DNA from: an uncultured Sphingomonadales bacterium
GTDB taxonomy: Bacteria; Pseudomonadota; Alphaproteobacteria; Sphingomonadales; Sphingomonadaceae
Reading direction: 5' to 3'
Length of the DNA: 64,000 nt
Assembly (NCBI GenBank): GCA_903821605.1
Contig: CAIJLZ010000004.1
Span: forward strand, 248,001 to 312,000
Shown in pieces: positions 15,029 to 46,805 of this stretch; the first letter of the stretch is position 1; every line of letters starts with the position of its first letter. The position numbers and the translations under genes are program-made. The notes under the pieces were generated by a model that saw only the letters and a program-made list of their open reading frames with translations, searched no databases and had not been told where the DNA came from.

Positions 15029-15039
15029 GGAGAAAACGC

Positions 15040-15864: not shown

Positions 15865-15901
15865 CGGCATGTTGCGCCTTTCTGCCATAGGAGTTCCCCC
15901 G

Positions 15902-18436: not shown

Positions 18437-19201
18437 CTAGGCTGGCTGGGTCGAGTTCCGGTGCGTCTGTGCGATCAAATCCAGCACGGTGCTGGCGTGT
18501 TCCTTCCGGCAGATCAACAGGTCGGGCAAATAGACGTCGCTGGCATTGTAGATCAGTGGACTGCCATCGATCCGGCTGCAATGCAGCCCATGTGCCTGTG
18601 CCACCGCCACCGGCGCGCAACTGTCCCATTCATACTGGCCGCCGGAATGCAGGTAGATATCGGCTTGCCCTAGGATCACGGCCATCGCCTTGGCACCGGC
18701 GGACCCCATCGGCACCAGCTCCGCGCCGAGCGTTTCCGCGACCTGCACCGCTTCTGCAGCAGGGCGGGTGCGGCTGACGACCATGCGCAGCCGATCCGGC
18801 GCGGGTGGTACGGCGCGCGGTTGATCGCTGCGCAGCACCACGCCGCCATCAAATCCCGGAAGTGCGACCGCGCCCAGTGTTGCCACGCCGTCCACCGCCA
18901 GCCCGACATGCACCGCCCAATCGGCGCGCTCCTCGCCATATTCGCGGGTGCCGTCAACGGGATCGACAATCCACACGCGCGATTTTGCAAGCCGGTCGAC
19001 GCTGTCTTTTTCTTCCTCCGACAGCAAGCCGTCATCAGGCCGCTGTTGGCGCAGGGCGTGGCATAGGAACTGGTTGGCAGTGGCATCCCCCGCCTTGCCC
19101 AGTGCCTTGGCCGGCAGCAGCCCCGCCGCGCGCACTTCGATCAACAGGCGTCCGGCCACGGCGGCGAGATGCGCAGCGAGATCCCCGTCATGCAGGCTCA
19201 T
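18437..19201 (-). CDS. cysQ: 3'(2'),5'-bisphosphate nucleotidase CysQ, 254 aa
   Basis: Inositol-monophosphatase-fold enzyme that hydrolyses 3'-phosphoadenosine 5'-phosphate (PAP), the by-product of PAPS-using sulfotransferases and PAPS reductase, and may also lower PAPS. The metal site is visible as LLSEEEKD (residues 59-66) and the signature [14 protein letters not shown] (77-90), with a second motif [16 protein letters not shown] near residue 200. Length is typical. Its start overlaps the cysNC stop by four bases, so the three genes form one minus-strand operon. Position beside two sulfotransferase genes fits removal of inhibitory PAP, although this is also a normal part of sulfate assimilation. 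Confidence 0.92.
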
Positions 19202-21105
19202 TTCAGCAGCTCCGTCACAATGCGTTCGGCTGCGTGCTGAGGCGTTTCCGCCGTGGTATCGACGCGCACTTCAGGGCTTTCGGGCGCTTCATAAGGGCTG
19301 TCGATGCCGGTGAAGTTCTTGAGCTGCCCGCTGCGGGCCTTTTTGTAGAGGCCCTTGACGTCGCGGCGCTCGGCTTCCTCCAGCGGGGTGTCGATGAACA
19401 CCTCGATGAAATCGCCTTCGGGCAGCATCGCCCGCACCATTTCGCGTTCGGCGCGGAAGGGGCTGATAAAGGCGGTCAGCACGATCAGACCGGCATCGGT
19501 CATCAGCTTGGCCACTTCGCCTACACGGCGGATGTTCTCGATACGGTCGGCTTCTGTAAAGCCCAGATCTTTGTTCAGCCCATGGCGCACATTGTCGCCG
19601 TCGAGCAGGAAGGTGTGCTTGCCCAAGGCATGCAGCTTCTTCTCGACCAGATTGGCTATCGTTGACTTGCCCGAGCCGGACAGGCCGGTGAACCACAGCA
19701 CCGCCGGGCGCTGGTGTTTCAGCGCGGCATGAGCGTCGCGGCTCACATCGACGGCTTGCCAGTGGACGTTCTGCGAACGGCGCAGGCTGAAGTGCAGCAT
19801 GCCCGCCGCAACGGTCGCGTTGGTGATCTTGTCGATCAGGATGAACCCGCCCAGTGTGCGGCTTTCGGCATAGGGCTCGAACACCACAGGGCGGTCGGTG
19901 ATGATTTCGACGACCCCGATGGCGTTGAGATCCAGCGTCTTGGCCGCCAGATGCTCCATGGTGTTCACATTCACCACATATTTGGGTTGCTGCACGGTGA
20001 CCGAGACGGTTTGCGTGCCCAGCTTGAGCCAATAGGCGCGGCCGACGTGCAGGGCTTCATCGTTGAGCCAGACCAGCGTGGTCTCGAACTGGTCGGCGGC
20101 CTGCGGCGGATTGTCGGCCGTGGCGATCACATCGCCACGCGAACAGTCGATCTCGTCCGCAAAGCACAAGGTGACGGATTGGCCGGCCACGGCCTCGTCC
20201 AAGTCACCATCGAGCGTGACGACGCGGGTTACCGTGCTGGTCTTGCCCGACGGCAGCACGCGCACGGCATCGCCCGGCTTGACGGAGCCGGTGGCGACGA
20301 GGCCAGAGAAGCCTCTGAAGTCGAGATTGGGGCGGTTGACCCACTGCACCGGCATGCGGAATGACTTGCTCGCATCAAGCGAGGACAGCACTTCCACCGT
20401 TTCGAGATGCTCGATCAGCGTCGGGCCTTTGTACCACGGCGTGTTGGGCGACGAAGTTGTGATATTGTCACCCTTGAAGCCGGAAATCGGTATCGCGGTG
20501 AAATTGTCGATCCCGATCGAGCGGGCGAACGCGGTATAGTCCTTGACGATGGTGTCGAAGACGGCCGGATCATAGCCGACCAGGTCCATTTTGTTCACCG
20601 CCAGCACGATGTTCTTGATGCCGATCAGGTGGCACAAATAGCTGTGGCGGCGCGTTTGTACCAGCACGCCCTTGCGCGCATCGATCAGGATCACCGCAAG
20701 GTCGGCGGTCGAGGCGCCGGTCACCATGTTGCGGGTATATTGTTCGTGGCCGGGACAATCGGCGACGATGAACTTGCGCTTTTCAGTGTTGAAGAAGCGA
20801 TAGGCCACGTCGATGGTGATGCCCTGTTCCCGTTCGGCGGCAAGCCCGTCGACCAGTAGCGCGAAGTCGATTTCCTGCCCTTGCGTACCGACCTTCTTGC
20901 TATCCGTTTCCAGCGCGGCGAGTTGGTCCTCGAAAATCATCTTCGAATCGTAGAGCATGCGCCCGATCAGCGTGGACTTGCCATCATCCACCGACCCGCA
21001 GGTGATGAAACGCAGCATGGTCTTGTGCTGGTGGCTATCGAGATATGCGTCGATGTCCTCGGCGATGAGCGCGTCGGTTTTGTAGATTACCTGCTGGTCC
21101 GACAT
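19198..21105 (-). CDS. cysNC: Bifunctional sulfate adenylyltransferase large subunit/APS kinase CysNC, 635 aa
   Basis: Fusion of a GTPase subunit of ATP sulfurylase with APS kinase; with CysD it makes APS, and the kinase part phosphorylates it to PAPS. The CysN part shows GSVDDGKST (residues 37-45), DCPGH (116-120) and NKMD (171-174) as GTP-binding motifs. The CysC part has [11 protein letters not shown] from about 472 and [17 protein letters not shown] near 500. The ATG at 21105 overlaps the stop of cysD (ATGA), and a longer in-frame reading upstream is rejected for that reason. Cytoplasmic. Gene order cysD-cysNC-cysQ delivers and disposes of the sulfuryl donor as a unit. Confidence 0.95.
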
Positions 21106-22013
21106 CAGAAATACCCCTGCTGCTTCTTCACTTCCATGCCAGCACCGCCGGCGTCCTTGTCGATGGCGCGGCCCTGGCGCTCGCTGGTGGTGGTCAGCAG
21201 CGTCTCCTGAATAATCTCGGGCAACGTCTTGGCTGTGCTCTCCACCGCACCGGTTAGCGGGTAGCAACCCAGCGTGCGGAAGCGAACCGAGCGCATCACC
21301 GGCTCTTCGCCGGGCTTGAGCGGAAAGCGATCGTCATCGACCATCAATAGCATGCCATCGCGCTCCACGGTTGGACGCTCGTCCGCGAAATAAAGTGGCA
21401 CGATCGGCACGTTATTGAGATGGATATACTGCCAGATGTCCAATTCGGTCCAATTCGAGATCGGGAACACGCGGATGGACTCACCCTTGTTCTTGCGGGC
21501 GTTGTAGAGGTTCCACAGTTCGGGGCGCTGATTCTTGGGGTCCCAGCCGTGGCTGGCGGTGCGGAAGGAGAAGATGCGCTCCTTGGCTCGGCTCTTTTCC
21601 TCGTCGCGCCGCGCGCCGCCAAAGGCCGCGTCGAAGCCGTATTTGTCGAGCGCCTGCTTCAGCCCTTCGGTCTTCCACATGTCGGTGTGAAGCGCGCCGT
21701 GATCGAACGGATTGATCCCCCGGTCCATCGCTTCCTGATTGTGATAGACCAGCAGGTCCATGCCGCTTTCGGCGGCCATGCGGTCGCGCAGCTTGTACAT
21801 CTCTTGAAACTTCCACGTCGTGTCGACGTGCAGCAGCGGGAAAGGCGGCGGCGAGGGATAGAACGCCTTGCGCGCCAGATGCAGCATCACCGCCGAATCC
21901 TTGCCCACCGAATAGAGCATCACGGGGTTCTCGGCCTCGGCCACAACCTCCCGCATGATGTGGATCGCCTCGGCCTCTAGCCGCGCAAGATGGGTAAGGG
22001 TCTTTTGGGTCAT
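21105..22013 (-). CDS. cysD: Sulfate adenylyltransferase subunit 2 CysD, 302 aa
   Basis: Catalytic ATP-pyrophosphatase-type subunit of heteromeric ATP sulfurylase; forms APS from ATP and sulfate together with the GTPase subunit. The PP-loop is [20 protein letters not shown] near residue 35, and [21 protein letters not shown] and [16 protein letters not shown] are CysD hallmarks; the C-terminus KKQQGYF is also family-typical. The ATG at 22013 lies about 10 bases after a GGAGAGAG site. First gene of the minus-strand operon, divergent from a LuxR-type regulator that begins 73 bases away, so both may share a promoter region. Confidence 0.96.
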
Positions 22014-22085
22014 GCTCTTTCTCTCTCTCCGCATGGGCGGTGTGTGCTTCAGATCGCCCCGAACCCTTGACAGCGAAGCTCCCAT

Positions 22086-23265: not shown

Positions 23266-23895
23266 TTAGGCCGGGCCAAGAAAAATCTCCACGCACCGCG
23301 CCGCATGGGCGCGCACCTGTTCTGGCGAAGGGAGCGGCAGTCCCACCAGCATGGTGTTGTGCAGCGGTGACAGCGCCATCGCCACGAACAGCATGGCCCG
23401 TTCGACCGAGCCTTCTTCTTCCAAGCCATGGCGTCGCAGGAACGCCGCGAGCGGCGCGATCAGATAATCCAAATGGCCCCGCTCGATTGCTTCGCGCATT
23501 TCGGGAAAATCGCGCGCCTCGCCGAGTGAAAGCAGGCCCATGCCATAGCTGTCGGCCTGCGACAGTTCGCCGTGTAAATCGATCACATAGCGCTCCAGCG
23601 CGGCGCGCAAGTCTTGGTCCGCATCCGGCTCCAGCCGGGGGAAGCGTTCCGCCCCGGCGATGACGCAGGCGCTGAACAAGGCCTGCTTGTCATGATGCCA
23701 GGCATAGAGTGTACGTTTGGTGATCCCGGCAGCGGCGGCGACTTCGTCCATCGTGGTGGCGCGATAGCCCTGCCGCACAAAAATACTGCGCGCCACTTCG
23801 AGCAAGTGCGCCCTGCGCCGTTGCGTGGTTTCCGCCGAAGGCCGTCCCCGCTGGCCACTTGGGCCTGTGCCCTTCTGAAGTTTTTTCCCCGCCAC
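23266..23895 (-). CDS. TetR-family transcriptional regulator, 209 aa
   Basis: One-component repressor: N-terminal HTH at about residues 28-72 (HLLEVARSIFVRQGYRATTMDEVAAAAGITKRTLYAWHHDK) and a variable ligand-binding helical domain. The start is GTG at 23895; no ATG lies upstream of the HTH. It is divergent from the alcohol dehydrogenase/sulfotransferase operon at 24014, and the space between holds an inverted repeat at 23945-23960, the usual layout for a TetR repressor controlling itself and the neighbour. The ligand is probably a substrate of that operon. Confidence 0.9.
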   Translation of the reverse strand: MAGKKLQKGTGPSGQRGRPSAETTQRRRAHLLEVARSIFVRQGYRATTMDEVAAAAGITKRTLYAWHHDKQALFSACVIAGAERFPRLEPDADQDLRAALERYVIDLHGELSQADSYGMGLLSLGEARDFPEMREAIERGHLDYLIAPLAAFLRRHGLEEEGSVERAMLFVAMALSPLHNTMLVGLPLPSPEQVRAHAARCVEIFLGPA

Positions 23896-24013: not shown

Positions 24014-25054
24014 ATGGAGTCCGACACGATGCCGCTCGCCCGCGTTCATGGGCCGGGTGATGTCCGCCTCGACGATGTGCCCGTGCCAGCCTGCGGGCTG
24101 GGAGAAGCAGTGGTGCGTGTGGCCGCTTGCGGCGTGTGCGGCAGTGATCTGAGCTATATTGCGCAAGGCGGGCTGGGCGGGGTTGAACCGCTCAGACAGC
24201 CGCTTGCCATCGGCCACGAATTTGCTGGCACGGTTATCGCGGTGGGCAGCGGCGTGGCCGGCGTTCAGCCGGGCCTGCGCGTGGCGGTGAACCCGGACCG
24301 CGCCTATATCGGTGGCGGCGGGCCGGATGGCGCCATGGCCCCGTTTATTCGGGTATCCGGCGCGGAAATTGGCGAAACGCTATTTCCCCTTCCTGCGCGG
24401 CTGCCCTTTGCCGAAGCTTCGCTGGCGGAGCCGCTGTCGGTCGGCCTGCACGGGTTGCGTGTGGCCAAGGTGACTGCGGCCGATAAAGTCGCGATTCTGG
24501 GGGCGGGGCCAATCGGGCTTTGCACGCTCGTCATGCTGCGCCATCTTGGCGTGACCGATGTGGCCATTTTTGATCGGGTGGATGAACGGCTAGACCGCGC
24601 CCGCGCACTGGGCGCAGGGCTTGCCGTCAACGTGTCATCTGAAAGCCTGCCGACCGCACTTGGCCGCTTCCACGGTAGCGGCGACCGTTTTGGCGCGCCC
24701 TTCGTCGGCACCGATGTGTTCGTCGACTGTGCCGGGTCCACCGCCGCCTTGGCAGAGGTGCTGTCGGTGGCGAAATATCGCGCCCGTATCGCGGTGATTG
24801 CGCTGCACCACAAACCCTTGCCACTCGATTTATGGCGGATGATGGCCAATGAGATCACGGTGTCTGGCTCCATCGCCGATGCCCGCGCCGCTGAATTTGG
24901 CGAGGCCGTCGCCATGCTGGGGCAGACCGAGCAGGACCTTTCCCCCCTGATCAGCCATCGTTTCGAATTCACCCGCTTCCATGAAGCGCTCGCCACCGCC
25001 GCCGATGCCGCCCGCGCGGCGAAGGTGGTGCTGACTTTCCCAGAGGCCGCATGA
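24014..25054 (+). CDS. Zinc-dependent alcohol dehydrogenase (MDR), 346 aa
   Basis: Medium-chain dehydrogenase that oxidises a secondary alcohol with NAD(P). Catalytic zinc ligands are visible: Cys39 in AACGVCGSDLS, His68-Glu69 in IGHEFAG and Glu139 in LAEPLSVGLHG. The structural-zinc loop with four cysteines is missing; residues 92-108 read NPDRAYIGGGGPDGAMA instead, so it is a short-lobe member. The Rossmann motif is GAGPIGLC (163-170). The ATG at 24014 follows AGAGAGGAAC. It opens an operon with a sulfotransferase, DUF1214-like protein, TIM-barrel protein and Gfo/Idh/MocA enzyme. Substrate could be a sugar or a sterol hydroxyl. Confidence 0.87.
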   Translation: MESDTMPLARVHGPGDVRLDDVPVPACGLGEAVVRVAACGVCGSDLSYIAQGGLGGVEPLRQPLAIGHEFAGTVIAVGSGVAGVQPGLRVAVNPDRAYIGGGGPDGAMAPFIRVSGAEIGETLFPLPARLPFAEASLAEPLSVGLHGLRVAKVTAADKVAILGAGPIGLCTLVMLRHLGVTDVAIFDRVDERLDRARALGAGLAVNVSSESLPTALGRFHGSGDRFGAPFVGTDVFVDCAGSTAALAEVLSVAKYRARIAVIALHHKPLPLDLWRMMANEITVSGSIADARAAEFGEAVAMLGQTEQDLSPLISHRFEFTRFHEALATAADAARAAKVVLTFPEAA

Positions 25055-26328
25055 CCACGAACACCCCCCTGATCCACATTGACGACATGGCCGATCCGGC
25101 GCTGACGCCCGAACTGCGCGCATGGCGCGAAGGTCCCGCCGATTTCCCCTGCCCATTGACGGCGGACGACGTGCTTGCCCGCGCCGTGGCCGAAACCGGC
25201 CTATCGGATTTCGGGCCGGACACCGGCTTTCGTGTCCGCCTCGCGGTGATCCTCCAGGCGCTTTACGAGGATTTGGGGCTGACCCGTGGCGGCCGCGTGT
25301 TCGTCCTTCAACAGGCGGTGCGCGCAATGGCCAACCGCCTGCGCATCGAAGACCTGGTCAAACGCCATCCCGAAATCCTGAACGTGCCGATCGACCGACC
25401 AATCTTTATCGCCGGGTTGCCGCGCTCAGGCACCACGCATCTCGTCAACTGGTTGTCGCGCGATGACCGGCTCAACGCGCTCACGCTGTGGGAATCGGAA
25501 GAGCCAGTGCCCGCTGCCCCGCTTGCGCCCGGCGAGACCGATCCGCGTCTGGCGCGCTCTGCCGCCTATTGGGGCGCGTTCGGCGCGCTGGTGCCGCATA
25601 TGGCTGCGATGCATGAAATGGCGGCGAATGATATTCATGAAGACAATGAACTGCTGTTCATGGACATGAATTGCTACAATTGGGAGTTTTCCGCTCGTCT
25701 GCCGCGCTGGACCGATCATTATTTGTCGCATGATCGCACGATCTCCTACGCCTATGAGAAAAAGGTGCTTCAGGTCATTGCGTGGCAGCGCGGGCTAAGG
25801 CCCGGCGAGCCGGGTCGCCGCCGCTGGCTGCTGAAATCACCGCAACACATGGAAAACCTGTCCGCGATCAAGGCGACGTTCCCCGATGCAACGATGGTGA
25901 TCACCCATCGTGATCCGGTGGACGTGCTGCGATCACTGACAACGATGCTCGGCTATTCTGACCGCACCCGGCGCGACCCGGTCGATCCGCCCGCGCTTGC
26001 CCGCCTCTGGGCCAGCCGTATCGAACGCCTGTTGCGCGAATGCGTAGCCCAGCGCGATGCCTTCGGTCCCGATCAGTCGCTGGATGTGTTGTTCCACCAA
26101 TATATGGCCGATCAGGAAAACACCGCGCGCCGCGTCTATCAGCTCGCCGGGCTGGACCTGCCGCCCGAGACTGAGGCGAAGCTGCTCGGCTATTTGGCTG
26201 AAAACCCGCGCCACGCGCACGGCAAGGTCGTCTACGATCTCGAAGGCGTGTTCGGGATGAGCGTGGCCGATCTGCGCCGTCGCTTTGCCTTTTATTACGA
26301 CCGCTTTCCCGTGAAGCAGGAGAACTGA
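25051..26328 (+). CDS. PAPS-dependent sulfotransferase family protein, 425 aa
   Basis: Second sulfotransferase. The phosphosulfate loop is PIFIAGLPRSGTTHLVNWL with LPRSGTT at residues 123-129, WLLKSPQHMENLSAIKATFPDATMVITHRDPVDVLRSL supplies the second PAPS segment. N-terminal region LTADDVLARAVAETGLSDFG parallels LQFDELVETARRNTGLDDFG of the 12990 gene, so they are paralogues. No signal peptide. It overlaps the alcohol dehydrogenase by ATGA and is followed after two bases by a DUF1214-like gene. Known relatives sulfate diverse hydroxyl groups; here the acceptor is unknown. Confidence 0.86.
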   Translation: MTTNTPLIHIDDMADPALTPELRAWREGPADFPCPLTADDVLARAVAETGLSDFGPDTGFRVRLAVILQALYEDLGLTRGGRVFVLQQAVRAMANRLRIEDLVKRHPEILNVPIDRPIFIAGLPRSGTTHLVNWLSRDDRLNALTLWESEEPVPAAPLAPGETDPRLARSAAYWGAFGALVPHMAAMHEMAANDIHEDNELLFMDMNCYNWEFSARLPRWTDHYLSHDRTISYAYEKKVLQVIAWQRGLRPGEPGRRRWLLKSPQHMENLSAIKATFPDATMVITHRDPVDVLRSLTTMLGYSDRTRRDPVDPPALARLWASRIERLLRECVAQRDAFGPDQSLDVLFHQYMADQENTARRVYQLAGLDLPPETEAKLLGYLAENPRHAHGKVVYDLEGVFGMSVADLRRRFAFYYDRFPVKQEN

Positions 26329-26330: not shown

Positions 26331-27596
26331 ATGTCCGCCCCGTCCGACACCGATCGCGCTGATACTGACCGCGCCGAGACCGCTCGTGAACGCCTGCTTT
26401 CCGGCCGCGCTTGGGATGATTTTTGCGACACGCTGAAAGTGGCAGGCCGACATATCAATGCGATCGATGGTCCTTTGTCCGATCTCGACCGCGCCGAATG
26501 GTATCGCTTCATGACCCGGCTTGCGCGGTCCAGCATGGAGCGGCTGATCGAAAATGCCGAACCTACCCGACCGCGCTTGCGGGACATGGTCTGGCGCCAA
26601 TCGATCAACGTGCAGACGGTCGATCAGGATCACCTGATGTGCCAGTTCGATGAAGCACGCGATTACCGCATCACCGGTACACGCGGCACCATCCCCTATT
26701 TTGTGATGGCCGTGCTGACCTGCCCCGCCCCCGATACGCCCGGTGCGCAGGACTGGGCGGCGCAGGGCGTCGAAGGGCTGAAGCAGTTCGATCCTTCCAA
26801 CCTCAAGACCACCGGTTTCCTAGCCAGCCAGCAAATGCATATCGAAGCCGATGGCACGTTCGAGTTGATCCTTTCGCAGAACGATCCCGGCGCGGGCAAA
26901 AACTGGCTCCGGCTGACGCCTGACACCAACTGCATCATGATCCGGCTCGTGTTTGGCGACCGCGGCTGTGAAGTCGCGCCCGCGATGACCATCGAACGGA
27001 TGGACCATGCCGCGCCCGAACCGGTCACGCCTGCCTTGATCGCCGATGGCTTGGCGTGGACCGGGCAGGCCGTGCTTGGTTATGCCGAACTGGTGCGCAA
27101 CTGGTGGCAGGGCACGCAGGGCAACTTCTCCGCACGCCTCAACCGGCTCGATTATAGCCGCGCGCAATATCTTTCCAATGGCGGCGTGCCGGATCGCCAT
27201 GTCGCTTTTGGGGGTTGGGAAAAACCGAAAGACATGGCGCTGGTCTTGGAATTCACGCCCCCGCCTTGCGAATATTGGAACTTCCAATTGTGCAACGTCT
27301 GGCAGGAAAATCTTGATACGTTCGAGGACGGCAATGGCTGGATCAACAATATCCGCCACGTTGCCGAAGCCAATGGTGTCGTGCGGGTGATCATTGCGGA
27401 AACCGACCCTGAAATCGGCGGCAACTGGATCAACAGCTATGGCCATGAGCGCGGCATCTGGGGCCTGCGCTTTGTGCAGACACAGGCCACCGCGCCGGTC
27501 ACCTTGTGGCGCGTGCCGCTCGCTAGCCTTCGGGCGCAAGGCCTCGCCTTGCTTGATCCCGCCACCGCCGTCGCCACCGGCCAGTTCGTAGATTAA
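26331..27596 (+). CDS. DUF1214-like protein of unknown function, 421 aa
   Basis: Function not recognised. N-terminal WDDFCDTLKVAGRHINAIDGPLSD parallels WHSFCDELKKAGD of the 15902 gene, and the C-terminal part has YWNFQLCNVWQENLDTF, then VVRVIIAETDPEIGGNWINSYG and RFVQTQ, the DUF1214-like pattern of a D-P-x4-NW core. No signal peptide or membrane segment. It starts two bases after the sulfotransferase stop. Repeated pairing with a sulfotransferase suggests either a partner protein or an enzyme acting on the sulfated product. Confidence is for a real gene and distant family, not function. Confidence 0.7.
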   Translation: MSAPSDTDRADTDRAETARERLLSGRAWDDFCDTLKVAGRHINAIDGPLSDLDRAEWYRFMTRLARSSMERLIENAEPTRPRLRDMVWRQSINVQTVDQDHLMCQFDEARDYRITGTRGTIPYFVMAVLTCPAPDTPGAQDWAAQGVEGLKQFDPSNLKTTGFLASQQMHIEADGTFELILSQNDPGAGKNWLRLTPDTNCIMIRLVFGDRGCEVAPAMTIERMDHAAPEPVTPALIADGLAWTGQAVLGYAELVRNWWQGTQGNFSARLNRLDYSRAQYLSNGGVPDRHVAFGGWEKPKDMALVLEFTPPPCEYWNFQLCNVWQENLDTFEDGNGWINNIRHVAEANGVVRVIIAETDPEIGGNWINSYGHERGIWGLRFVQTQATAPVTLWRVPLASLRAQGLALLDPATAVATGQFVD

Positions 27597-27601: not shown

Positions 27602-28459
27602 ATGTCCCTTTCAGCCGATCTTATATTCTGTTCGCCCGCCATGCCCGGCGTGCCGCTGCTTGATCGGCTGGGTCCGGTGGCGGCAGCCGGGTTCACGGCG
27701 CTTTCGCTCATGCCCAGTGATGTCTGGGCGCTTGAAGATGCTGGCATGACCGCATCGGAAATCGCCGCGCGCATTGCCGATGCAGGATTGAAAGTCGCGG
27801 AAATGGACTGCACTGCGTGCTGGATGCCGCGTCAACAGATGCAGGGTGATGGCGGTGCCCTGTCGCTGTTGCTGCGCGGGCTGACCACCGAAAAGGTGGT
27901 GGACACCGCCGCACGCATCGGCGCCGCATCGGTGGTTGCGGTGGACATCGCCGATATGGTGTGCCCGCTCGACGAAGCGGCGGCCGGCTTTGCGCAACTA
28001 TGCGACGTTGCTGCGCAGCATGGATTGCCCGTGCAGATCGAATTTCTGCCCGTCGGCGGTATCCGTACGCTGACGCAGGCATGGGCGATCGTCTCTGCCG
28101 CTGGCCGCGCCAATGGCGGCTTGACGATTGATGCCTGGCATTTTTACCGCAGCGGATCGACGCTGGAACAACTCGCGCAGATTCCCGGGGACCGGATCCA
28201 CACCGTGCAGTTGTGCGATGCCCCGGCCACGCCGCAAGCGGACCTGTGGAATGAATTGATGACGGCGCGCCTACTGCCGGGCGAAGGCGATCTCGATTTA
28301 GTCGGGCTTGTCCGCACGCTTGATGCCATCGGTTCCACGGCCCCCTTCGGCGTCGAAGTGTTCAATACCCGCCAGCATGATCAAGCACTGACGCAAGTGG
28401 CCCGCGATTGGGTCACTGCCGCGCGCACCACACTCGCACTAGCAAGAGGCAACGCATGA
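27602..28459 (+). CDS. Sugar isomerase/epimerase-like TIM-barrel protein, 285 aa
   Basis: Member of the AP-endonuclease-2/xylose-isomerase-like TIM-barrel family, whose metal-dependent members isomerise, epimerise or eliminate sugars. Candidate metal ligands are Glu147 (VQIEFLP), Asp177 and His180 (LTIDAWHFYRSG), Gln203 (HTVQLCD) and Glu252 (FGVEVFN); LLPGEGDLDL is a further family segment. Five bases separate it from the DUF1214-like gene, and it overlaps the Gfo/Idh/MocA gene by ATGA. The pairing recalls systems that oxidise a sugar to its 3-keto form and then cleave the glycosidic bond by beta-elimination. That role is inference. Confidence 0.8.
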   Translation: MSLSADLIFCSPAMPGVPLLDRLGPVAAAGFTALSLMPSDVWALEDAGMTASEIAARIADAGLKVAEMDCTACWMPRQQMQGDGGALSLLLRGLTTEKVVDTAARIGAASVVAVDIADMVCPLDEAAAGFAQLCDVAAQHGLPVQIEFLPVGGIRTLTQAWAIVSAAGRANGGLTIDAWHFYRSGSTLEQLAQIPGDRIHTVQLCDAPATPQADLWNELMTARLLPGEGDLDLVGLVRTLDAIGSTAPFGVEVFNTRQHDQALTQVARDWVTAARTTLALARGNA

Positions 28460-29583
28460 CCAGCCCATCTATCCCCATTGGCGCCGTCGTCGTCGGTACC
28501 GGCTTCGGTTTGTTCACCCATGTCCGTGCCCTGCGGGATGCAGGGTTCGAGGTGCGCGCCATCGTCGGGCGCGATCTGGAAAAGACGCGCGCGCGATCAG
28601 CCCCGCTCGGCATTCCGTTGGCGTCGAATGATCTGGCAAAAGTGCTGGCCGATGACCCCGCGATCCGCCTTGTCACCGTCGCCACCCCGCCCCATGCGCA
28701 TTATACCCCGGTGATGCAGGCGATTGCCGCAGGCCGCGCCGTCGTCTGTGAAAAGCCGTTCGCCAAGGATCTCCCCCAAGCGCGCGAAATGCTGGCCGCC
28801 GCGCAAGCCGCTGGCGTGATCCATGCGCTTGGCGCCGAATTCCGTTTCGACAGCGCGCAGGCGCTGCTGACCCGCGTGGTGCAATCGGGCGCGATCGGCG
28901 AGCCGCTGATGTTCCATCGCATTTACCAGCAACCGGGCGGCGACCAGAATGAGCCGCTGGCTGATTGGTGGCTCGATGCCGCGCAAGGCGGCGGTTTCCT
29001 TGGCGCATTTGGCACGCACATGATCGATCAGGCGCGCTGCACGGTGGGCGAATTCACCCGCGTCAGCGCGGTGCTGCGCAAGCTTGCCACCACCCGTCCG
29101 ACGCAGACCTCGGATGATTATTACACCATCCAGTTCGAAACCGCATCGGGATGCCTGGGTTTGGTCGAAGCGGCGCTGTGCTTCCCCGGCCCGTTCGTCA
29201 TGTCGACCAAGGTGGCGGGGAGCAAGGGGGCGGCGTGGATCCAGTCGGGTGCGGCATTTGGTGAGCCCGAACAGGTCTGGGTGCAGGATGCCGATGGCGC
29301 CCGGCAAGTCCCAATGCCCGCCGAACTCGCCAATCCCGCGCCGGAACCCTTCCCCATCGCCGAACTGGTGCAGACGGAGATGGACCGCTGGCACAGCCAA
29401 GGCTTTGACGTTGCCCCTTATGCCAAGCTGTTTGCCCAAGTGAAGGCGCGCATCGAAGGCCGCGATCCCCCGCTGCCCGATCCAGCAGGCGATTTCCGTG
29501 ATGCCGCCGCCAATCAGGCGATCCTCGATGCGGCGCGGCGTTCCAATGCGGTTCGCGGCTGGGTTGAAGTGGAGGCGATCTGA
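28456..29583 (+). CDS. Gfo/Idh/MocA-family oxidoreductase, 375 aa
   Basis: NAD(P)-dependent oxidoreductase acting on sugars or cyclitols. The Rossmann motif is VVVGTGFGLFTH (11-22) and the signature CEKPFAKDL contains the usual catalytic Lys100. The C-terminal alpha/beta domain has LADWWLDAAQGGGFLGAFGTHMIDQARCTVGEFTRVSA, including the conserved G-x3-D-x3-H pattern (HMIDQA). Its start overlaps the TIM-barrel gene and its stop overlaps the next SDR start (TGATG). Such an enzyme next to a sugar isomerase-like protein suggests processing of a glycosylated or polyol-bearing substrate. Confidence 0.88.
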   Translation: MTSPSIPIGAVVVGTGFGLFTHVRALRDAGFEVRAIVGRDLEKTRARSAPLGIPLASNDLAKVLADDPAIRLVTVATPPHAHYTPVMQAIAAGRAVVCEKPFAKDLPQAREMLAAAQAAGVIHALGAEFRFDSAQALLTRVVQSGAIGEPLMFHRIYQQPGGDQNEPLADWWLDAAQGGGFLGAFGTHMIDQARCTVGEFTRVSAVLRKLATTRPTQTSDDYYTIQFETASGCLGLVEAALCFPGPFVMSTKVAGSKGAAWIQSGAAFGEPEQVWVQDADGARQVPMPAELANPAPEPFPIAELVQTEMDRWHSQGFDVAPYAKLFAQVKARIEGRDPPLPDPAGDFRDAAANQAILDAARRSNAVRGWVEVEAI

Positions 29584-30332
29584 TGGGACCGAACCATGAT
29601 TTCACGGGCGCGCATGTGCTTGTCACCGGCGGCACCAGCGGCATCGGTGCGGCGAGCGCCGCCCTGTTCCGCAATGCCGGGGCGCAAGTGACGATTACCG
29701 GCACGCGCGGCAGCGCGGCTGATTATGACGCAGACCTGTCTGGCTATCGCTACATGCAGCTTGATATTGAAGACAAAGACAGCATCGACGCGGTCGCAGC
29801 CGCTCAGTCGCGGCTAGACGTGCTGGTCAACAATGCGGGCTTTGCCCTGCCCTCGATCGGGCTAGACGAATGGGAGCCGGATGTATTCGACCGCGCCGTT
29901 ACCATGCTGCTCAACGGCGCATTCCGTATGGCCCGACGTAGCGTTGACCTGCTGGCGCAAAGCGTGATCCCGGGCGGCGGATCGGTGATCGGGGTGGCGT
30001 CAATGAGCAGCTTCTTCGGCATCCCCATCGTGCCCGGTTATGGCGCGGCCAAGACCGGGCTGGTTGGCCTTACCCGCACCATGGCGGCGCATTGGGGCGC
30101 GCGCGGTGTGCGCGCCAATGCCGTGGCGGCGGGCCTGACGCGCAGCGGCATGACCGCAGGCACTTTTGCGCAAGAGGCATGGACCGCCCCCACGCTCGCC
30201 CGGACCCCGCTCGGCCGTCTGGGTGAACCCGACGATATCGCGCAGGCCATTGCCTTTCTCGCCAGCCCGGCTGCCAGTTGGATCACCGGGCAGACGCTGG
30301 CGGTGGACGGCGGCTACACCATTTCAGGCTGA
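29583..30332 (+). CDS. SDR oxidoreductase, 249 aa
   Basis: Short-chain dehydrogenase: HVLVTGGTSGIGAASAALFRNAGA, GTRGSAADYD at the cofactor specificity position (Arg suggests NADP), NNAGFALPS, ASMSSFFGIPIVPGYGAAK as the catalytic region and ITGQTLAVDGG at the C-terminus. Start and previous stop share a base. Last of the tightly coupled run from 24014. A 209-base gap with no coding potential follows. Substrate unknown. Confidence 0.88.
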   Translation: MGPNHDFTGAHVLVTGGTSGIGAASAALFRNAGAQVTITGTRGSAADYDADLSGYRYMQLDIEDKDSIDAVAAAQSRLDVLVNNAGFALPSIGLDEWEPDVFDRAVTMLLNGAFRMARRSVDLLAQSVIPGGGSVIGVASMSSFFGIPIVPGYGAAKTGLVGLTRTMAAHWGARGVRANAVAAGLTRSGMTAGTFAQEAWTAPTLARTPLGRLGEPDDIAQAIAFLASPAASWITGQTLAVDGGYTISG

Positions 30333-30541: not shown

Positions 30542-31300
30542 ATGAAAGGCCTCAAGGGCAAGGTCGGTATTGTTGCGGGCGGCGGTCGTGGCATTGGCGC
30601 AGCCACCGCGCGGCGGCTCGCCGCAGAAGGTGCGCATGTCGTGATCGGAGACTTGCAGGGCGATTGGGCGCGCGAGGTCGCCGAAGATATCCGCAGCACG
30701 GGCGGTATTGCCACGGGCATCGATCTTGACGGCACCAGCGCGGAATCACAGGCGGCCATCGTGGCCTGCGCGGTGGAAACCTATGGCGGGCTAGATTTCT
30801 ACCATTCGAACCTCGCCGGCGGCACCAACGGGGATGTCGACATCCTCGATTGCCCGGTTGAAGTGCTCGACGCCAGCTTTGCCATTAATACCAAGAGCCA
30901 CTTCCTTGCCAGCCAGGCCGCCTTGCCCAAAATCATCGAACGCGGCGGTGGCGCGATGATCTACACTTCGTCCGGCGCGGCGGCGGGTGGCGCGGCGTGG
31001 CAGGTCGCCTATCCCATGACCAAGAACGCCATTCACGCGCTTGCTCGCCATGTCGCCTCGCGCTTCGGCAAACAGGGCGTGCGTGCCAATGTGATCTGCC
31101 CCGGCCTTGTCCTGACCGAAGCGGTCAAGCAATATCTTACCGATGAATATGTCGAACGCGGGTTGAAGGGCATACCCCACACCCGTCTGGGGCAACCTGA
31201 AGATATCGCCGCCGCCGTCACGTTCCTTGCCTCCGATGATGGCGCTTGGGTCAATGGCCAGGTCTGGCACGTGAACGGCGGGGCGCAGATGCGGGATTGA
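30542..31300 (+). CDS. SDR oxidoreductase with altered NNAG motif, 252 aa
   Basis: Short-chain dehydrogenase fold with VGIVAGGGRGIGAATARRLAAEGAHVVIGD at the N-terminus and the catalytic region IYTSSGAAAGGAAWQVAYPMTK. The usual NNAG after strand 4 is replaced by HSNLAGG, so the Asn that helps the proton relay is shifted or lost. C-terminal DDGAWVNGQVWHVNGGAQM is nearly the same as in the SDR at 51388 (DGRWINGQVFHINGGA), so the two are paralogues. It starts a new transcript after an AT-rich gap and is followed after four bases by an MFS gene. Confidence 0.86.
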   Translation: MKGLKGKVGIVAGGGRGIGAATARRLAAEGAHVVIGDLQGDWAREVAEDIRSTGGIATGIDLDGTSAESQAAIVACAVETYGGLDFYHSNLAGGTNGDVDILDCPVEVLDASFAINTKSHFLASQAALPKIIERGGGAMIYTSSGAAAGGAAWQVAYPMTKNAIHALARHVASRFGKQGVRANVICPGLVLTEAVKQYLTDEYVERGLKGIPHTRLGQPEDIAAAVTFLASDDGAWVNGQVWHVNGGAQMRD

Positions 31301-31304
31301 TCGC

Positions 31305-32606
31305 ATGGCCGCGCCCAGCATCAGCTCCGCCCCCGCCGCCCTGCACAGCGCCAGTGGTCGCCCCCTGACGAACCGTTGGGTGGCGCTCGCCCTGCTCTTG
31401 CTTGTCGCCATCCTCAACTATGCCGACCGCTTTTTGATGTCGGGATTGGCGCAACCGGTCAAGGCGCACTTCGGTGTCAGCGATGCCTTGATGGGCGCGC
31501 TGATGGGGCCGGCGTTCGCTTTGCTCTACGCCATCTTCTCCCTGCCCCTCGCCCGATTGGCAGATCGCCATTCGCGCGTGATGATCGTGGCGATCGGGTG
31601 CGGGGTGTGGAGCTTTTTCACCATGTTGTCCGGCATGGCGACCACGCCCGCGATGCTCGCTGTCGCGCGGGTCGGCGTCGGCATTGGGGAAGCCGCCTAT
31701 CAGGCCCCCGCCGCCGCACTGATTGCGGCCTATTTCCCGCTTGAACAGCGCGGCCGCGCCTTTGCCTTGCTCGGCACTGCAATCTATTTTGGCCAGATGA
31801 TGGGGTTTGCGGGTGGCCCTGCCATCGCCGCTGCCTATGATTGGCGCACCGCGTTCCACGCGCTTGGGATTGCCGGCATCGTGATCGCCATCGCCACGAT
31901 GCTCGTGGTGCGCGAACCGGCGCGTGAGGCTGCTACATTAGGATCTCCGCCCCTCCGTCTTGGGGCGACGATCCGTTTGCTGATGGCTACGCCTACGGTG
32001 CGCCATCTGGCCGCATTGCTGACCTTCGGAACGCTGTCCGGCGTGACCTTCGCCATGTGGGGCACTGCCCTGTTCGAACGCGCCTATGGCCTTTCGACCG
32101 AGGACGCAGGCGCCATCTTCGCGCTCAGCTTCGGCTTGCCGGGCCTGTTTGGCACGCTGGGGTTCGGGTTTATTGCGGACCGCATCGGGCGCAAGGACCC
32201 GGCTGCGATCATGCGACTTGCCGCCATCGCTTTGGGGTCTTGCACCGCGCTGGTGTTGGCCGTGGTATGGGCCAATAGCCTTGTGCTGGCGCGGACCTTG
32301 GCCGTGCCAGCCGGGTTGCTCGGCGGGGGCTGGTCAGTGGCGGTCATGGCCGGGATGCAATATCTGCTGCCAAGCGCCCACCGCGCTACCGGCACCGCGT
32401 TGGTGCTGCTGATCGCCGGGCTATTCGCCACCGTGATCGGCCCGGTTGTGGCGGGTCAGTTGAGCGACTGGATCGCGGGCGCGGGTGCCACCGGCCTGCG
32501 CGTCGGCCTCACCGTCGCCGTTCCCACCGCCTATTTCGGTGTGTGGGGCGCGATCGCCGCCACGCGCACGTTGGAACGAGATCGGGCGCAGCTCCACGCT
32601 GGCTGA
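31305..32606 (+). CDS. MFS transporter, spinster-like, 433 aa
   Basis: Twelve-segment major facilitator. The first segments read VALALLLLVAILNYADRFLMSGLAQPVKAHFGVSDALMG, typical of spinster-like permeases of sphingomonads; the loop motif LADRHSRVMIVAIG and the fourth-helix ARVGVGIGEAAYQAPA also fit. Predicted inner-membrane transporter for a lipophilic or organic-acid substrate. It follows the SDR by four bases and ends the operon before a 224-base regulatory gap. It is unrelated in subfamily to the MFS gene at 17100. Confidence 0.88.
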   Translation: MAAPSISSAPAALHSASGRPLTNRWVALALLLLVAILNYADRFLMSGLAQPVKAHFGVSDALMGALMGPAFALLYAIFSLPLARLADRHSRVMIVAIGCGVWSFFTMLSGMATTPAMLAVARVGVGIGEAAYQAPAAALIAAYFPLEQRGRAFALLGTAIYFGQMMGFAGGPAIAAAYDWRTAFHALGIAGIVIAIATMLVVREPAREAATLGSPPLRLGATIRLLMATPTVRHLAALLTFGTLSGVTFAMWGTALFERAYGLSTEDAGAIFALSFGLPGLFGTLGFGFIADRIGRKDPAAIMRLAAIALGSCTALVLAVVWANSLVLARTLAVPAGLLGGGWSVAVMAGMQYLLPSAHRATGTALVLLIAGLFATVIGPVVAGQLSDWIAGAGATGLRVGLTVAVPTAYFGVWGAIAATRTLERDRAQLHAG

Positions 32607-32733
32607 TCATTTTCTTCCGCTTGCCTCGTCATCGGCCAGCAGTGCGCCAGGTTTTCGTTGCTGGCGATATCGGCCTGATTGAGCTGTGACATTTTGCGGG
32701 AATGCGCAAATGCCATCGAGGCCCATCGAAAAA

Positions 32734-32777
32734 ATGGATAATGCGCAAAATAAATATCTTTGAAATCCGCAAAAGAT
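32734..32777. promoter_or_regulatory. Probable AsnC-type operator upstream of the ligase operon
   Basis: The gap 32607-32830 has no gene. It holds ATCTTTGAAATCCGCAAAAG at 32756-32775, which with the following AT forms ATCTTT-N10-AAAGAT as an inverted repeat, and an extra ATGCGCAAAATAAATATC just upstream (32741-32758), plus ATGCGCAAAT at 32702. The same core recurs at 47662 and 59602. The site is about 55 bases before the ligase ATG, a position suited to promoter control. Confidence 0.55.
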
Positions 32778-32830
32778 AACATAATTCTCCTCGAAAGGAT
32801 GCACTGCATCGATTCGTGGGGAGAGCGAGC

Positions 32831-34543
32831 ATGACAACAGGGGTAGCCCCTGCTGCGGATTCTGGTGTCGTGGCGGGCGCTGCGGCCGATCCGGTATTCG
32901 TTGCGGTGACCGGTCCGGGCAGCGCGTTCGAGATCGGACTGCGCGATGGGATGCGCCAGTTTGTCAATGCACGTTCGGATCTCAACCTGATGATCGAGAC
33001 GGCGCGCCGCTATGGTGAGCGGACTTGCGTGGTCGACTTCGATTCCGCCGGGCTGGAACGTCGGTTGAACTATGAACAGATGTTTGCCTGGCGCGATCAA
33101 TTGGTGCCGATGCTGCATATCCAACGCGGCGATCGGGTGGCGATCTGCATGCGCAACCGTTCCGAATGGCTGGTGGGTTTTCTCGCCACGATGAAAGCCG
33201 GTGGGGTGGCGGTGCTGCTGAACAGCCGCGGCTCCGAGCCTGAACTGCTGGCGATGATTGAGGATGCCGATCCGGCGGTGGTGCTGGCCGATGATAGCCG
33301 CGCGGCGGCGATCCGAGCGGCAGGCTATACCGGACGGATGCTGGACCTGACCCACCCGTTTGATGCGGACGAACTCGCGCGGCGGGCAGCGGAGCCGGTG
33401 GCGGACGCGGGCGTGGCGCAGGCCGATGATCCATGCGCGATCCTGTTCACCTCGGGCACCACGGGCCGGGTAAAAGGCGCGGTGCTGAGCCATCGCAACC
33501 TGATCACCGGGCTGATGGCCACGCAGCTTTCCGGCATGATGGTGGTGCACACGATGGCGCGCCAACTGGGCGTGCCGGTCGACGTGATGCTGGCACAGAT
33601 GCCACAGCAGGCAGCGTTGTTGGTCTCTCCGCTGTTTCACGTTTCCGGTCTGGGATCGGGGTTTCTTTCGCCATTTATGGCGGGATCGAAAGTGGTGATT
33701 ATGCGTCGCTGGGATGCGCAGGAAGCGGTACGGCTGATTGCGCGCGAAGGCGTGACCATGTTCACCGGCGTGCCGACGATGTTGTGGGATATTCTGCACC
33801 GTGCGCGGGCAGAGCAACTGGACCTCGAATCCTTGCGCAATATCGGGAGCGGTGGGCAGGCCTTGCCGGTGAACCTGGTGGATGAGATCCACGCGGTGGC
33901 TCCGCATGCCCAGATCGGCACGGGGTACGGTATGACCGAATGTTCGGGCGCGATTGCGCAAGCGGTGGGGGCCGACTTCATGCGCCGCCCTGCCGCAGCG
34001 GGGCGCGTGCTGCCGCTGGTCGATGTGCGGATCGAAGGGCCGGGAGGGGTTGTGCTGCCAGCCGGCGAGGCGGGCGAGATCGTGGTGCGCGGCGCGCAAG
34101 TGATGCTGGGCTATTGGAACCGGCCCGAGGAAACCGCGGCGGTGCTTTCGCCCGATGGCTGGTTGCGGACTGGCGACGTCGGGATGGTGGATGCCGAGGG
34201 CTATATCTTCATCATTGATCGTAAGAAGGACATGGTCATCTCGGGCGGCGAGAACATCTATTGCGCCGAAGTGGAGCGCGCGCTGGGCGAGATCGCCCAA
34301 GTGCGCGAATGTGCCGCTTTTGGCGTGCCGGATGAGCGTCTGGGTGAACGGCTGGTCGCCGTGGTGGTGGCCGATGGCGTGACCGAAGCGGAAATCATCG
34401 ACCGTGTCGGCCAAAGCCTTGCCCGATACAAGGCGCCGACGCGCGTGATCTTCAGTCGCGAGACGTTGCCGCGCAATCCGATCGGTAAAGTGGACAAAGT
34501 GGACCTGCGCAAGGCGTGGTCCCGACTTTCAGGAGAACAATGA
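32831..34543 (+). CDS. AMP-forming acyl-CoA ligase, 570 aa
   Basis: ANL-superfamily ligase activating a carboxylic acid as its CoA ester. ILFTSGTTGRVKG lies at residues 204-216, GYGMTECSG is motif A5, WLRTGDVG motif A7, DRKKDMVISGGENIYCAEVE follows, and Lys553 in NPIGKVDKVDL is the catalytic lysine. The ATG at 32831 is preferred to an in-frame GTG at 32816 because GGGGAGAG lies at the right distance before it. An insertion around residues 225-250 (MVVHTMARQLGVPVDVMLAQMP) is longer than in FadD3-like ligases. Opens an operon with amidohydrolase-like and SDR genes. Substrate unknown. Confidence 0.9.
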   Translation: MTTGVAPAADSGVVAGAAADPVFVAVTGPGSAFEIGLRDGMRQFVNARSDLNLMIETARRYGERTCVVDFDSAGLERRLNYEQMFAWRDQLVPMLHIQRGDRVAICMRNRSEWLVGFLATMKAGGVAVLLNSRGSEPELLAMIEDADPAVVLADDSRAAAIRAAGYTGRMLDLTHPFDADELARRAAEPVADAGVAQADDPCAILFTSGTTGRVKGAVLSHRNLITGLMATQLSGMMVVHTMARQLGVPVDVMLAQMPQQAALLVSPLFHVSGLGSGFLSPFMAGSKVVIMRRWDAQEAVRLIAREGVTMFTGVPTMLWDILHRARAEQLDLESLRNIGSGGQALPVNLVDEIHAVAPHAQIGTGYGMTECSGAIAQAVGADFMRRPAAAGRVLPLVDVRIEGPGGVVLPAGEAGEIVVRGAQVMLGYWNRPEETAAVLSPDGWLRTGDVGMVDAEGYIFIIDRKKDMVISGGENIYCAEVERALGEIAQVRECAAFGVPDERLGERLVAVVVADGVTEAEIIDRVGQSLARYKAPTRVIFSRETLPRNPIGKVDKVDLRKAWSRLSGEQ

Positions 34544-34544
34544 C

Positions 34545-35411
34545 ATGGCTATGCCCAAGGATATCGGGATCATCGACTGCATGCTGGGCATTCCCGATGC
34601 AGAAGATCGTGGTGAGTGGTTCGCTCCGTTCCGCCCGCTGATCAAGGATGCGCAGACGCTGCAGCAATTCGCCATGCCGGCGCAGTACATGTTCAAGGAC
34701 ATCCCGCAATCGGGCCTGCAGGACGATTATCTGCGCTGGACCGTGGAGCAGATGGACAAGCACCATGTCGAACGTGCGCTGGTCGGGTGGAACGATAACG
34801 ACACATCGCGCCGGGCCAAGGAGCTTTACGGCAATCGCTTCTTCTTCGACCTGCCGATCGATCCGAACCGGGGCATGGAGGAAGTGCGCCGGATCAAGCG
34901 CGTTCATGCCGAAGTGGGCCTGTCGGCTGTCAGCTGCTTTCCCGCAGGAACACTGCCGCAAGTGGCGATCAACCACAAATATATGTTCCCAATCTATGCC
35001 GCGTGCGAGGAACTGGGTCTGCCGATCCTGCTGAACGTGGGCATTCCGGGTCCGCGCATTCCGATGGAGACGCAGAAGGTCGAACATCTGGACGAAGTGT
35101 GCTGGTTCTTCCCCGAACTGAAAGTGGTGATGCGCCACGGCGCCGAGCCGTGGGAAGCGCTGGCGGTGAAGCTGATGCTGAAGTGGCCGAACCTATATTA
35201 TTCGACCAGCGCCTTTGCGCCCAAGCATTACCCCAAGGCCATCATCGATTATGCCAACACGCGTGGCGCAGATAAGGTCATCTATGCCGGTTATTTCCCA
35301 ATGGGTCTGAGCCTGGATCGCATCATGAGCGACATGGAGAAGGTGCCGTTCAAGGACGACGTCTGGCCAAAGTTCCTGCGGGAAAACGCGATACGGGTGT
35401 TCGGCCTTTAA
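34545..35411 (+). CDS. Amidohydrolase-2-like protein lacking metal ligands, 288 aa
   Basis: TIM-barrel protein of the amidohydrolase-2/decarboxylase family by overall pattern (start IIDCMLGIP, central LPILLNVGIPG, MRHGAEPWEALAVKLMLKWPNLYYSTSAFAPKHYP, and the C-terminal ENAIRVFGL). The usual ligands are altered: the strand-1 HxH is DCM (11-13), the strand-5 His is Asn164, and the C-terminal Asp of the GSDxP motif is replaced in YAGYFPMG (Tyr250). Only His198 remains. It may be metal-free, bind CoA esters without classic catalysis, or be a pseudoenzyme. AGGAGAAC precedes the ATG, directly after the ligase stop. Confidence 0.82.
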   Translation: MAMPKDIGIIDCMLGIPDAEDRGEWFAPFRPLIKDAQTLQQFAMPAQYMFKDIPQSGLQDDYLRWTVEQMDKHHVERALVGWNDNDTSRRAKELYGNRFFFDLPIDPNRGMEEVRRIKRVHAEVGLSAVSCFPAGTLPQVAINHKYMFPIYAACEELGLPILLNVGIPGPRIPMETQKVEHLDEVCWFFPELKVVMRHGAEPWEALAVKLMLKWPNLYYSTSAFAPKHYPKAIIDYANTRGADKVIYAGYFPMGLSLDRIMSDMEKVPFKDDVWPKFLRENAIRVFGL

Positions 35412-35457
35412 CGCGATAAGCCTGTAAGGCGTCAAGCAGCGGCGGGAAGGAGTCGAC

Positions 35458-36306
35458 ATGTCGGGCATTCTCAGCGGTCGCGTCGCCATCGTGACCGGCG
35501 CAAGCCGGGGCATCGGTGCGGCCATTGCACGCCGTTTTGCGGCCGAAGGCGCTCGCGTTGCCCTCGTGGCGCGAACCATTGAATCCGGCGGCCCCTTGGC
35601 GGGTTCGTTGGCAGAGACGCTGTCAGTGATCGAGGCGGCGGGCGGCCAAGCCCACGCCATCCGCGCCGATCTTGCCGACCCGGCAGATCGCGCGCGGATT
35701 GTGCCGGAAACGCTGGCCCGGTTCGGCCAGATTGATATCTTGGTCAATAATGCGGCGTGGGCGCGCTTCATCCCGATCTGGGAGGCGTCGCCGCGCCATG
35801 TCGAACTGGCTTTGCAGATGAATGTGCGCGCACCGCAGGAGTTGTCACAACACGCCCTGCCACATATGCGCAAGGCCGGGGCGGGCTGGATACTCAACAT
35901 TTCAAGCGCGACGGCCGATCTTCCTCCGCCGGCGCCCTATGATCCCGCGGACCGCTATGTTGCATTCAACCGGGATGGTCACGCGACACTGTACGGCGTG
36001 ACCAAATCCGCGTTGGACCGACTGAGCGCAGGGTGGGCAGTTGAGCTTTCGCGTGAGAATATCGCGATCAATGCGCTTGCGCCGGTGGGCGCGGTGGCCA
36101 GTGCGGGCGCCTTGGCCGTGGGCAACTGGGACGAGCGCGACCATCTCGAACCGGTCGAGGCCATGGCCGAAGCGGCGTTGCAATTGTGCCACCGACCGGC
36201 GCAGGAGATAAGCGGTCATGTGGTGCGTAGCCTTGCGCTGCTTGATCGGCTCGGCGTGGCAGTGCGCGACCTTGATGGTCGCGTCGTGACGCCGGTTTCA
36301 GCGTGA
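35458..36306 (+). CDS. SDR oxidoreductase, 282 aa
   Basis: Short-chain dehydrogenase with VAIVTGASRGIGAAIARRFAAEGARVALVART (NADP-type Arg), NNAAWARFIPIWE in place of NNAG, ISSATADLPPPAPYDPADRYVAFNRDGHATLYGVTK, and a C-terminal extension VRSLALLDRLGVAVRDLDGRVV. The insertion between the catalytic Ser and Tyr (about 20 residues more than usual) is distinctive and also known in a subgroup of SDRs from steroid-type clusters (from memory). AAGGAG precedes the ATG. Follows the amidohydrolase-like gene after 46 bases. Confidence 0.87.
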   Translation: MSGILSGRVAIVTGASRGIGAAIARRFAAEGARVALVARTIESGGPLAGSLAETLSVIEAAGGQAHAIRADLADPADRARIVPETLARFGQIDILVNNAAWARFIPIWEASPRHVELALQMNVRAPQELSQHALPHMRKAGAGWILNISSATADLPPPAPYDPADRYVAFNRDGHATLYGVTKSALDRLSAGWAVELSRENIAINALAPVGAVASAGALAVGNWDERDHLEPVEAMAEAALQLCHRPAQEISGHVVRSLALLDRLGVAVRDLDGRVVTPVSA

Positions 36307-36417
36307 CGGGCGAAGCGTGATGATGTGCGCGATGTGTTCTTCTATCATTGGAGCCGGGAAGTCTGCTCCATTCACAATGCCATTCAGGGCGGGTGAGACA
36401 ACCCGATCCGCCCAGAA

Positions 36418-36439
36418 ACTTCCCTGTTTTGAGGGAAGT
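36418..36439. promoter_or_regulatory. Hairpin/palindrome before the Rieske gene
   Basis: ACTTCCCT (36418-36425), loop GTTTTG, AGGGAAGT (36432-36439): a perfect eight-base inverted repeat 19 bases before the Rieske oxygenase ATG. It lacks a following T-run, so it is more likely an operator or mRNA leader hairpin than a terminator. The rest of the 152-base gap shows no motif I recognise. Confidence 0.45.
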
Positions 36440-36458
36440 CTATTTCGGGAGTTTGACC

Positions 36459-39082: not shown

Positions 39083-39112
39083 CAGGCATGGGCGAAGGCG
39101 GTGGCGAAGTGG

Positions 39113-40167: not shown

Positions 40168-40234
40168 GATGTTCCCCAGGAAAGCGTTGTCCTTCGTTTC
40201 AGCTCTTAAGTTATTGAATGGGAGCGTGCAAGCA

Positions 40235-42462: not shown

Positions 42463-42468
42463 CGTGGG

Positions 42469-44678: not shown

Positions 44679-44700
44679 GGTTTGATGCTGCTAAAGGTTG

Positions 44701-44746
44701 GGCAGGCGTCCGAGGGGTTTTGCCTCGGGCGCCTGCCTTTCTTTTA
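44701..44746. terminator. Bidirectional intrinsic terminator
   Basis: GGCAGGCGTCCGAGG (44701-44715), loop GGTTTTG, CCTCGGGCGCCTGCC (44723-44737) forms a 15-base stem with a single G-T wobble, followed by TTTCTTTTA on the plus strand. It sits between the convergent HsaA-like gene and the Rieske gene, whose stop codon lies in the T-run. Confidence 0.88.
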
Positions 44747-46800: not shown

Positions 46801-46805
46801 GGCGA

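Follow-up and report, generated by a model that had tools for sequence, protein, structure and literature searches.

What reaction does a coupled TIM barrel and Gfo/Idh/MocA oxidoreductase (GFO) carry out in a sphingomonad, and on what kind of substrate? The two genes lie in a 64,000-nucleotide stretch of DNA (the window) from contig C4 of a Sphingomonadaceae genome that totals 2.67 Mb. An earlier note on this DNA proposed that the pair removes sugars by oxidation and elimination in the manner of DgpA/DgpBC, perhaps from a natural steroid or saponin-like glycoside. The relevant features of the window are as follows, with the basis for each given in parentheses.

23266–23895, minus strand: TetR-type regulator, divergent, beside the module also in N. 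aromaticivorans pNL2 and in PP1Y (neighborhood comparison)
24014–25054, plus strand: MDR zinc-type alcohol dehydrogenase (ADH; ADH_N + ADH_zinc_N), the module's first gene (Pfam; conserved in module)
25051–26328, plus strand: sulfotransferase (PF13469), PAPS-site motifs GLPRSGT and THRDP invariant, nearest solved 2z6v and 2zq5 (Pfam, alignment)
26331–27596, plus strand: DUF1214 protein, fold like 6ans of Burkholderia cenocepacia (Pfam, fold comparison)
27602–28459, plus strand: xylose-isomerase-like TIM barrel, QuiC/IolI/Lmo2234-like, predicted metal ligands E147, D177, Q203, and E252 (Pfam, alignment, AlphaFold2 model)
28456–29583, plus strand: GFO, with K100 (EKP) and H188 invariant, A184 for the usual Asp, and R39 (Pfam, alignment)
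29583–30332, plus strand: SDR oxidoreductase, the module's last gene (Pfam; conserved in module)
30542–39082, plus strand: catabolic run of SDR, MFS, acyl-CoA ligase, amidohydrolase, SDR, KshA_C Rieske oxygenase, and amidase (Pfam)
57076–58311, minus strand: LLM flavin oxidoreductase, 74% identical to the copy in the Chol11 island (sequence comparison)

The barrel ORF is intact, begins with ATG, and encodes 285 amino acids; its TGA overlaps the ATG at position 28456 of the 375-amino-acid GFO ORF, forming ATGA. Pfam matches are well above cut-off for both proteins (PF01261 at 4.1e-23 for the barrel; PF01408 at 1.3e-20 and PF22725 at 2.9e-22 for GFO). The same-strand gene run begins with the zinc ADH gene, upstream of which the TetR gene diverges, and the sulfotransferase and DUF1214 genes separate ADH from the barrel, with the SDR gene following the pair. 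ORF coordinates and Pfam thus confirm the families, the ATGA coupling, and the operon start with a zinc ADH that the earlier note had described.

Related loci were found when the barrel alignment was used as the query; the single barrel sequence yielded none. Of 397 Sphingomonadaceae genomes, 25 encode a barrel homologue (E ≤ 1e-40) and 21 encode GFO, the latter always at E ≤ 1e-194, with no match between this value and the limit of 1e-100. Every GFO-bearing genome (21/21) also carries the barrel, adjacent in 20 (the exception being G319), and every one encodes the DUF1214 protein. The chance that all 21 would fall inside the 25 barrel-bearing genomes is 3e-31 if genomes are treated as independent, which they are not fully, although the carriers span 13 genera. 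The barrel–GFO pairing is far from chance. Within 20-kb neighborhoods, the order ADH–sulfotransferase–DUF1214–(VOC)–barrel–GFO–SDR, or a small permutation of it, recurs at 40 to 80% identity, and all six genes of the window (ADH, sulfotransferase, DUF1214, barrel, GFO, and SDR) are kept together in relatives as a set, here called the module. It is annotated in N. aromaticivorans pNL2 as SARO_RS19090 to RS19065, with SARO_RS19075 as the barrel and SARO_RS19070 as GFO, and is found also in Sphingobium herbicidovorans pMSHV, tomato-root Sphingobium, and Novosphingobium PP1Y.

Many relatives have a separate VOC gene beside the barrel, but we rejected this gene as an essential component because it is absent from the window, N. 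aromaticivorans, and PP1Y. The DUF1214 gene of S. herbicidovorans MH (L057:15469–16733) is split between two reading frames (B6S01_RS18610 and RS21790), and so the module of this strain may be decaying. At four loci (L048, L049, L053, and L054), a barrel or GFO gene stands beside one for a 712-amino-acid Old Yellow Enzyme-type protein, a homologue of which is encoded at 48953–51091 of the window; no GFO was found nearby in L049, L053, or L054. The papers searched make no mention of the module.

The module is a sphingomonad catabolic set found alongside the genes for 9,10-seco degradation of steroids. Of 318 family genomes, 35 carry an HsaA orthologue (HsaA is its best NCBIfam match, at 373 bits versus a cut-off of 450), including all 19 GFO-bearing genomes of this sample (2e-21, again if genomes are independent), and so do both GFO-bearing genomes outside the sample (G354 and G395). 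Ten genomes carry the barrel and HsaA on one contig, 23 to 62 kb apart, and five of these contigs exceed 1 Mb. In the genome studied here, HsaA and HsaD orthologues (84% and 83%) are located at C4:238–240 kb, approximately 36 kb from the barrel, and KshA-type proteins are encoded at C4 157 and 183 kb, with more distant ones inside the window; the contig of the module therefore holds both HsaA/HsaD orthologues and KshA-type oxygenases, as a 9,10-seco island should. Two genomes of the same genus that lack the module lack HsaA and HsaD as well.

Several other features of the island were recorded. An additional AP_endonuc_2 barrel gene, at C4:181.5 kb, has a KshA gene approximately 1 kb away, and there are several Lrp/AsnC regulators, one tandem pair among them (window 39113–40167 and 47756–48412). 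Window 32816–51091 is largely syntenic with pNL2 221–240 kb of N. aromaticivorans (63–90% identity), where it lies approximately 25 kb from the module; the catabolic run, from the ligase onward, corresponds to pNL2 221–227 kb and is separate from the module there.

Carriers of the module include the estrogen degraders Croceicoccus estronivorus and Sphingobium estronivorans and the bile-salt degrader Sphingobium sp. Chol11. In Chol11 (NZ_OBMU01000002.1), the module occupies 45.5–55.1 kb (45517–55136), and three strong KshA genes reside at 42.6, 66.2, and 76.2 kb. Called genes separating one KshA gene from the next number 22 and 8, near the expectation for Nov2c407, 430, and 440, and a SnoaL_4 protein is encoded seven genes before the first KshA, as expected for Nov2c400/Hsh2 (PMC8399759). 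Because these positions and spacings fit, the module corresponds approximately to Nov2c410–418, inside the bile-salt region, with the Nov2c numbers being derived from gene spacing and not from accessions. S. herbicidovorans and the tomato-root Sphingobium share this block in nearly colinear form. Two further AP_endonuc_2 barrels are present in the Chol11 island (L153:15084–15878 and L154:18035–18895); one lies three genes from a KshA homologue, and an NAD(P)-dependent oxidoreductase gene neighbors the other.

Note that 16 of the 35 HsaA-bearing genomes lack GFO, so that steroid degradation as such does not require the module. These 16 genomes would also suit a module that travels with steroid genes in catabolic islands yet has another alicyclic compound as its substrate, such as a terpenoid or polyketide; the islands hold many enzymes without an assigned role, and there had been no assessment of whether N. 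aromaticivorans grows on steroids (PMC12239570). We nevertheless regard a substrate of this kind as unlikely, given the tight linkage and the presence of the module in bile-salt and estrogen degraders that were isolated independently. Of the glycosylated natural steroid or saponin-like substrate envisaged previously, the steroid setting is borne out by HsaA/HsaD, KshA-type Rieske oxygenases, and the known degraders, but the glycoside part is not.

The active site of the barrel bears on this second part. Among 30 aligned homologues, E147, D177, H180, Q203, R223, and E252 are invariant, such that the metal ligands predicted previously (Glu147, Asp177, Gln203, and Glu252) are placed as claimed, Gln203 being the third ligand in 30/30; position 149 is always L, V, I, or M (L149 here). 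A profile search of the PDB with the barrel gave Lmo2234 (8.5e-52), QuiC1 (6.4e-31), and IolI (9.2e-29) as its top three matches, and comparison of the AlphaFold2 model (pLDDT 94) with known folds yielded VIA Z values of 34.2 for Lmo2234, 32.5 for IolI, 32.1 for QuiC1, and 28.2 for the next match. The QuiC/QsuB active site comprises Glu134, Leu136, Asp165, His168, Gln191, Arg210, and Glu239 (PMC7442255), and all seven residues align with barrel E147, L149, D177, H180, Q203, R223, and E252. QuiC Ser206, which takes part in substrate binding, is not kept, the aligned position 219 being M, T, L, A, or D among the homologues. Because of these active-site residues and closest folds, the best-fitting chemistry would be metal-assisted enolization of a ketone, leading to isomerization or water loss, as judged from family and residues.

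In a 3-keto-glycoside lyase pair resembling DgpA/DgpBC or AtOGE, GFO would instead oxidize a glycoside at C3, and elimination of the aglycone would fall to the barrel. The two superfamilies are indeed found side by side, as in known systems, the best solved relatives of GFO include levoglucosan dehydrogenase with DgpA2 lower, and tomato-root saponin degraders carry the module. However, the catalytic base of CGD enzymes is a His located two residues after the β5 ligand (His143 in PuCGD and His149 in AgCGD2) and their third metal ligand is His (PMC8563793), whereas AtOGE employs His132/Asp163/His189 as ligands and His134 as the base (PMC10628242). The barrel has Glu147, Asp177, and Gln203 as ligands with L/V/I/M149, and a catalytic His at ligand +2 is found in 0/30 relatives. 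The PDB profile search with the barrel returned no CGD or OGE structure at E < 1; AtOGE (8BVK) and CGD were also not among the matches listed in the fold comparison, which alone excludes nothing. In addition, the CGD β subunit (CGDB; PF19906) is absent from this genome by a search that was positive in 23 of 397 family genomes. The DUF1214 protein was considered as its equivalent and rejected, since it has the fold of 6ans/VPA0735 and the genome search for CGDB was empty.

A genuine sphingomonad CGD α protein (L059) carries the E-V-H motif and matches CGD crystal structures, whereas the barrel does not, and no sequence similarity between the barrel and L059 was detectable. Genomes with CGDB and genomes with the module overlap in 2/25 cases (1.4 expected). 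Because CGDB is absent here, L059 is dissimilar, and co-occurrence is near expectation, the sugar-removal system is a different one from the module. Sphingobium RC1 strips saponin sugars with ordinary glycoside hydrolases (PMC10653915). Deglycosylation of the DgpA/DgpBC type is therefore not supported and we give it very little credence: judged by sequence alignment and the predicted fold, the catalytic residues of C- and O-glycoside lyases appear to be missing. Lacking the residue needed by its sugar-removing relatives, the barrel more likely dehydrates or rearranges a ketone of steroid breakdown.

GFO retains a Rossmann domain, the Lys of the EKP motif (Lys100), a C-terminal domain, and the catalytic His (His188), and both Lys100 and His188 are invariant among homologues. 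Most Gfo/Idh/MocA members have Asp at the position occupied here by Ala184. Arg39 suggests the use of NADP. Among solved proteins, levoglucosan dehydrogenase and two uncharacterized ones are closest to GFO, with DgpA2 further down; that the nearest is a sugar enzyme would count against a steroid substrate. GFO scores 104 bits against the levoglucosan dehydrogenase NCBIfam equivalog, below its cut-off of 650. Given the loss of QuiC Ser206 and the altered Asp of GFO, both substrates probably differ from those of the known enzymes.

A pathway for an inositol-type polyol or sugar, unrelated to steroids, would make GFO an inositol dehydrogenase and the barrel an inosose isomerase. IolI is the second closest fold to the barrel and GFO does match the IolG model, albeit weakly (94 bits versus a cut-off of 355). 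This assignment is nonetheless decidedly unlikely, considering that IolI has a His where all 30 barrel relatives have Gln, that the neighboring genes encode oxygenases, CoA ligases, and acyl-CoA dehydrogenases, and that the module is linked to steroid genes.

The sulfotransferase keeps its PAPS motifs, and its nearest solved relatives (2z6v and 2zq5, both mycobacterial) were deposited as uncharacterized. Its pairing with DUF1214 recurs: a second, diverged sulfotransferase–SDR–SDR–DUF1214 set without barrel or GFO is present at window 12990–17095, with sulfotransferase and DUF1214 proteins approximately 31% and 29% identical to those of the module. Genes for cysD and cysNC, with a further gene (window 18437–22085; read from sequence), are found 2 kb upstream, on the opposite strand. 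We rejected them as a PAPS supply for the module and take their proximity as coincidence because no homologue is found near the module in any relative. In tomato-root Sphingobium TomTYG65, two arylsulfatase genes (L058:9559–14228) immediately precede the module, which suggests sulfated substrates or intermediates. Sulfate that the sulfotransferase places on a hydroxyl of a steroid intermediate might serve as a leaving group: GFO or ADH would oxidize the carbon two positions away, and the metal-bound barrel would enolize the ketone and expel sulfate. If true, this route would spare the sphingomonad steroid pathway a difficult dehydration, but we consider it a very unlikely one.

The analysis shows which genes are present, their conservation and their linkage to steroid genes, the invariance of the active-site residues, and the fold class; the enzyme roles that follow are inferred. 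GFO (probably NADP+-dependent, acting through Lys100 and His188), ADH, and SDR would interconvert a secondary alcohol and ketone on a steroid-derived intermediate. In the barrel, Glu147, Asp177, Gln203, and Glu252 would hold a divalent metal that polarizes the ketone, while His180 would move the α proton and Arg223 would steady the enolate. The product would be an isomerized hydroxyketone, as with IolI, or an enone after water loss, as with 3-dehydroshikimate dehydratase (DSD). We hold this scheme of ketone formation followed by enolization to be reasonably probable. The sphingomonad variant of bile-salt and steroid degradation has been worked out only in part, and the removal of side chains has been called "largely unknown" (PMC12175502). 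A conserved six-gene set of unassigned enzymes in these islands, sulfotransferase and DUF1214 included, offers a gene-level candidate for missing steps of the steroid pathway, and two of its carriers, Sphingobium sp. Chol11 and N. aromaticivorans DSM 12444, are established laboratory strains.

Among known systems, the Chol11 bile-salt cluster holds the module itself, between the SnoaL gene matching Nov2c400/Hsh2 and the KshA homologues matching Nov2c430/440, by gene spacing; in the passages of PMC8399759 covered, the module is absent from the assigned bile-acid genes (Table 1). CGD/DgpBC and AtOGE share with the barrel a TIM fold and divalent metal, and CGD has a GFO partner, but the barrel is without their catalytic His and His ligand and the CGD β subunit is missing. 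The levoglucosan pathway (LgdA/LgdB1) likewise combines a GFO with an isomerase-like protein for oxidation and then elimination (PMC7676230); GFO here scores below the equivalog cut-off, and the context of the module is steroid rather than sugar. IolI (PDB 1i60) is alike in fold, DxxH, and RxxPGxG motif, but has His as the third ligand, aligned with barrel Q203. Lmo2234 (PDB 2g0w) is closest in both fold and sequence and has Gln as the third ligand, although it is a structural-genomics entry from Listeria titled "putative sugar isomerase." QuiC1/QsuB (DSD, PDB 5hmq) has the same fold and E-L/D-H/Q/R/E pattern; in contrast, the barrel has no fused VOC domain, does not keep Ser206, and reaches an NCBIfam score of 66 bits versus a cut-off of 1200. 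The oxidation plus enolization proposed for the module belongs to a known kind of chemistry.
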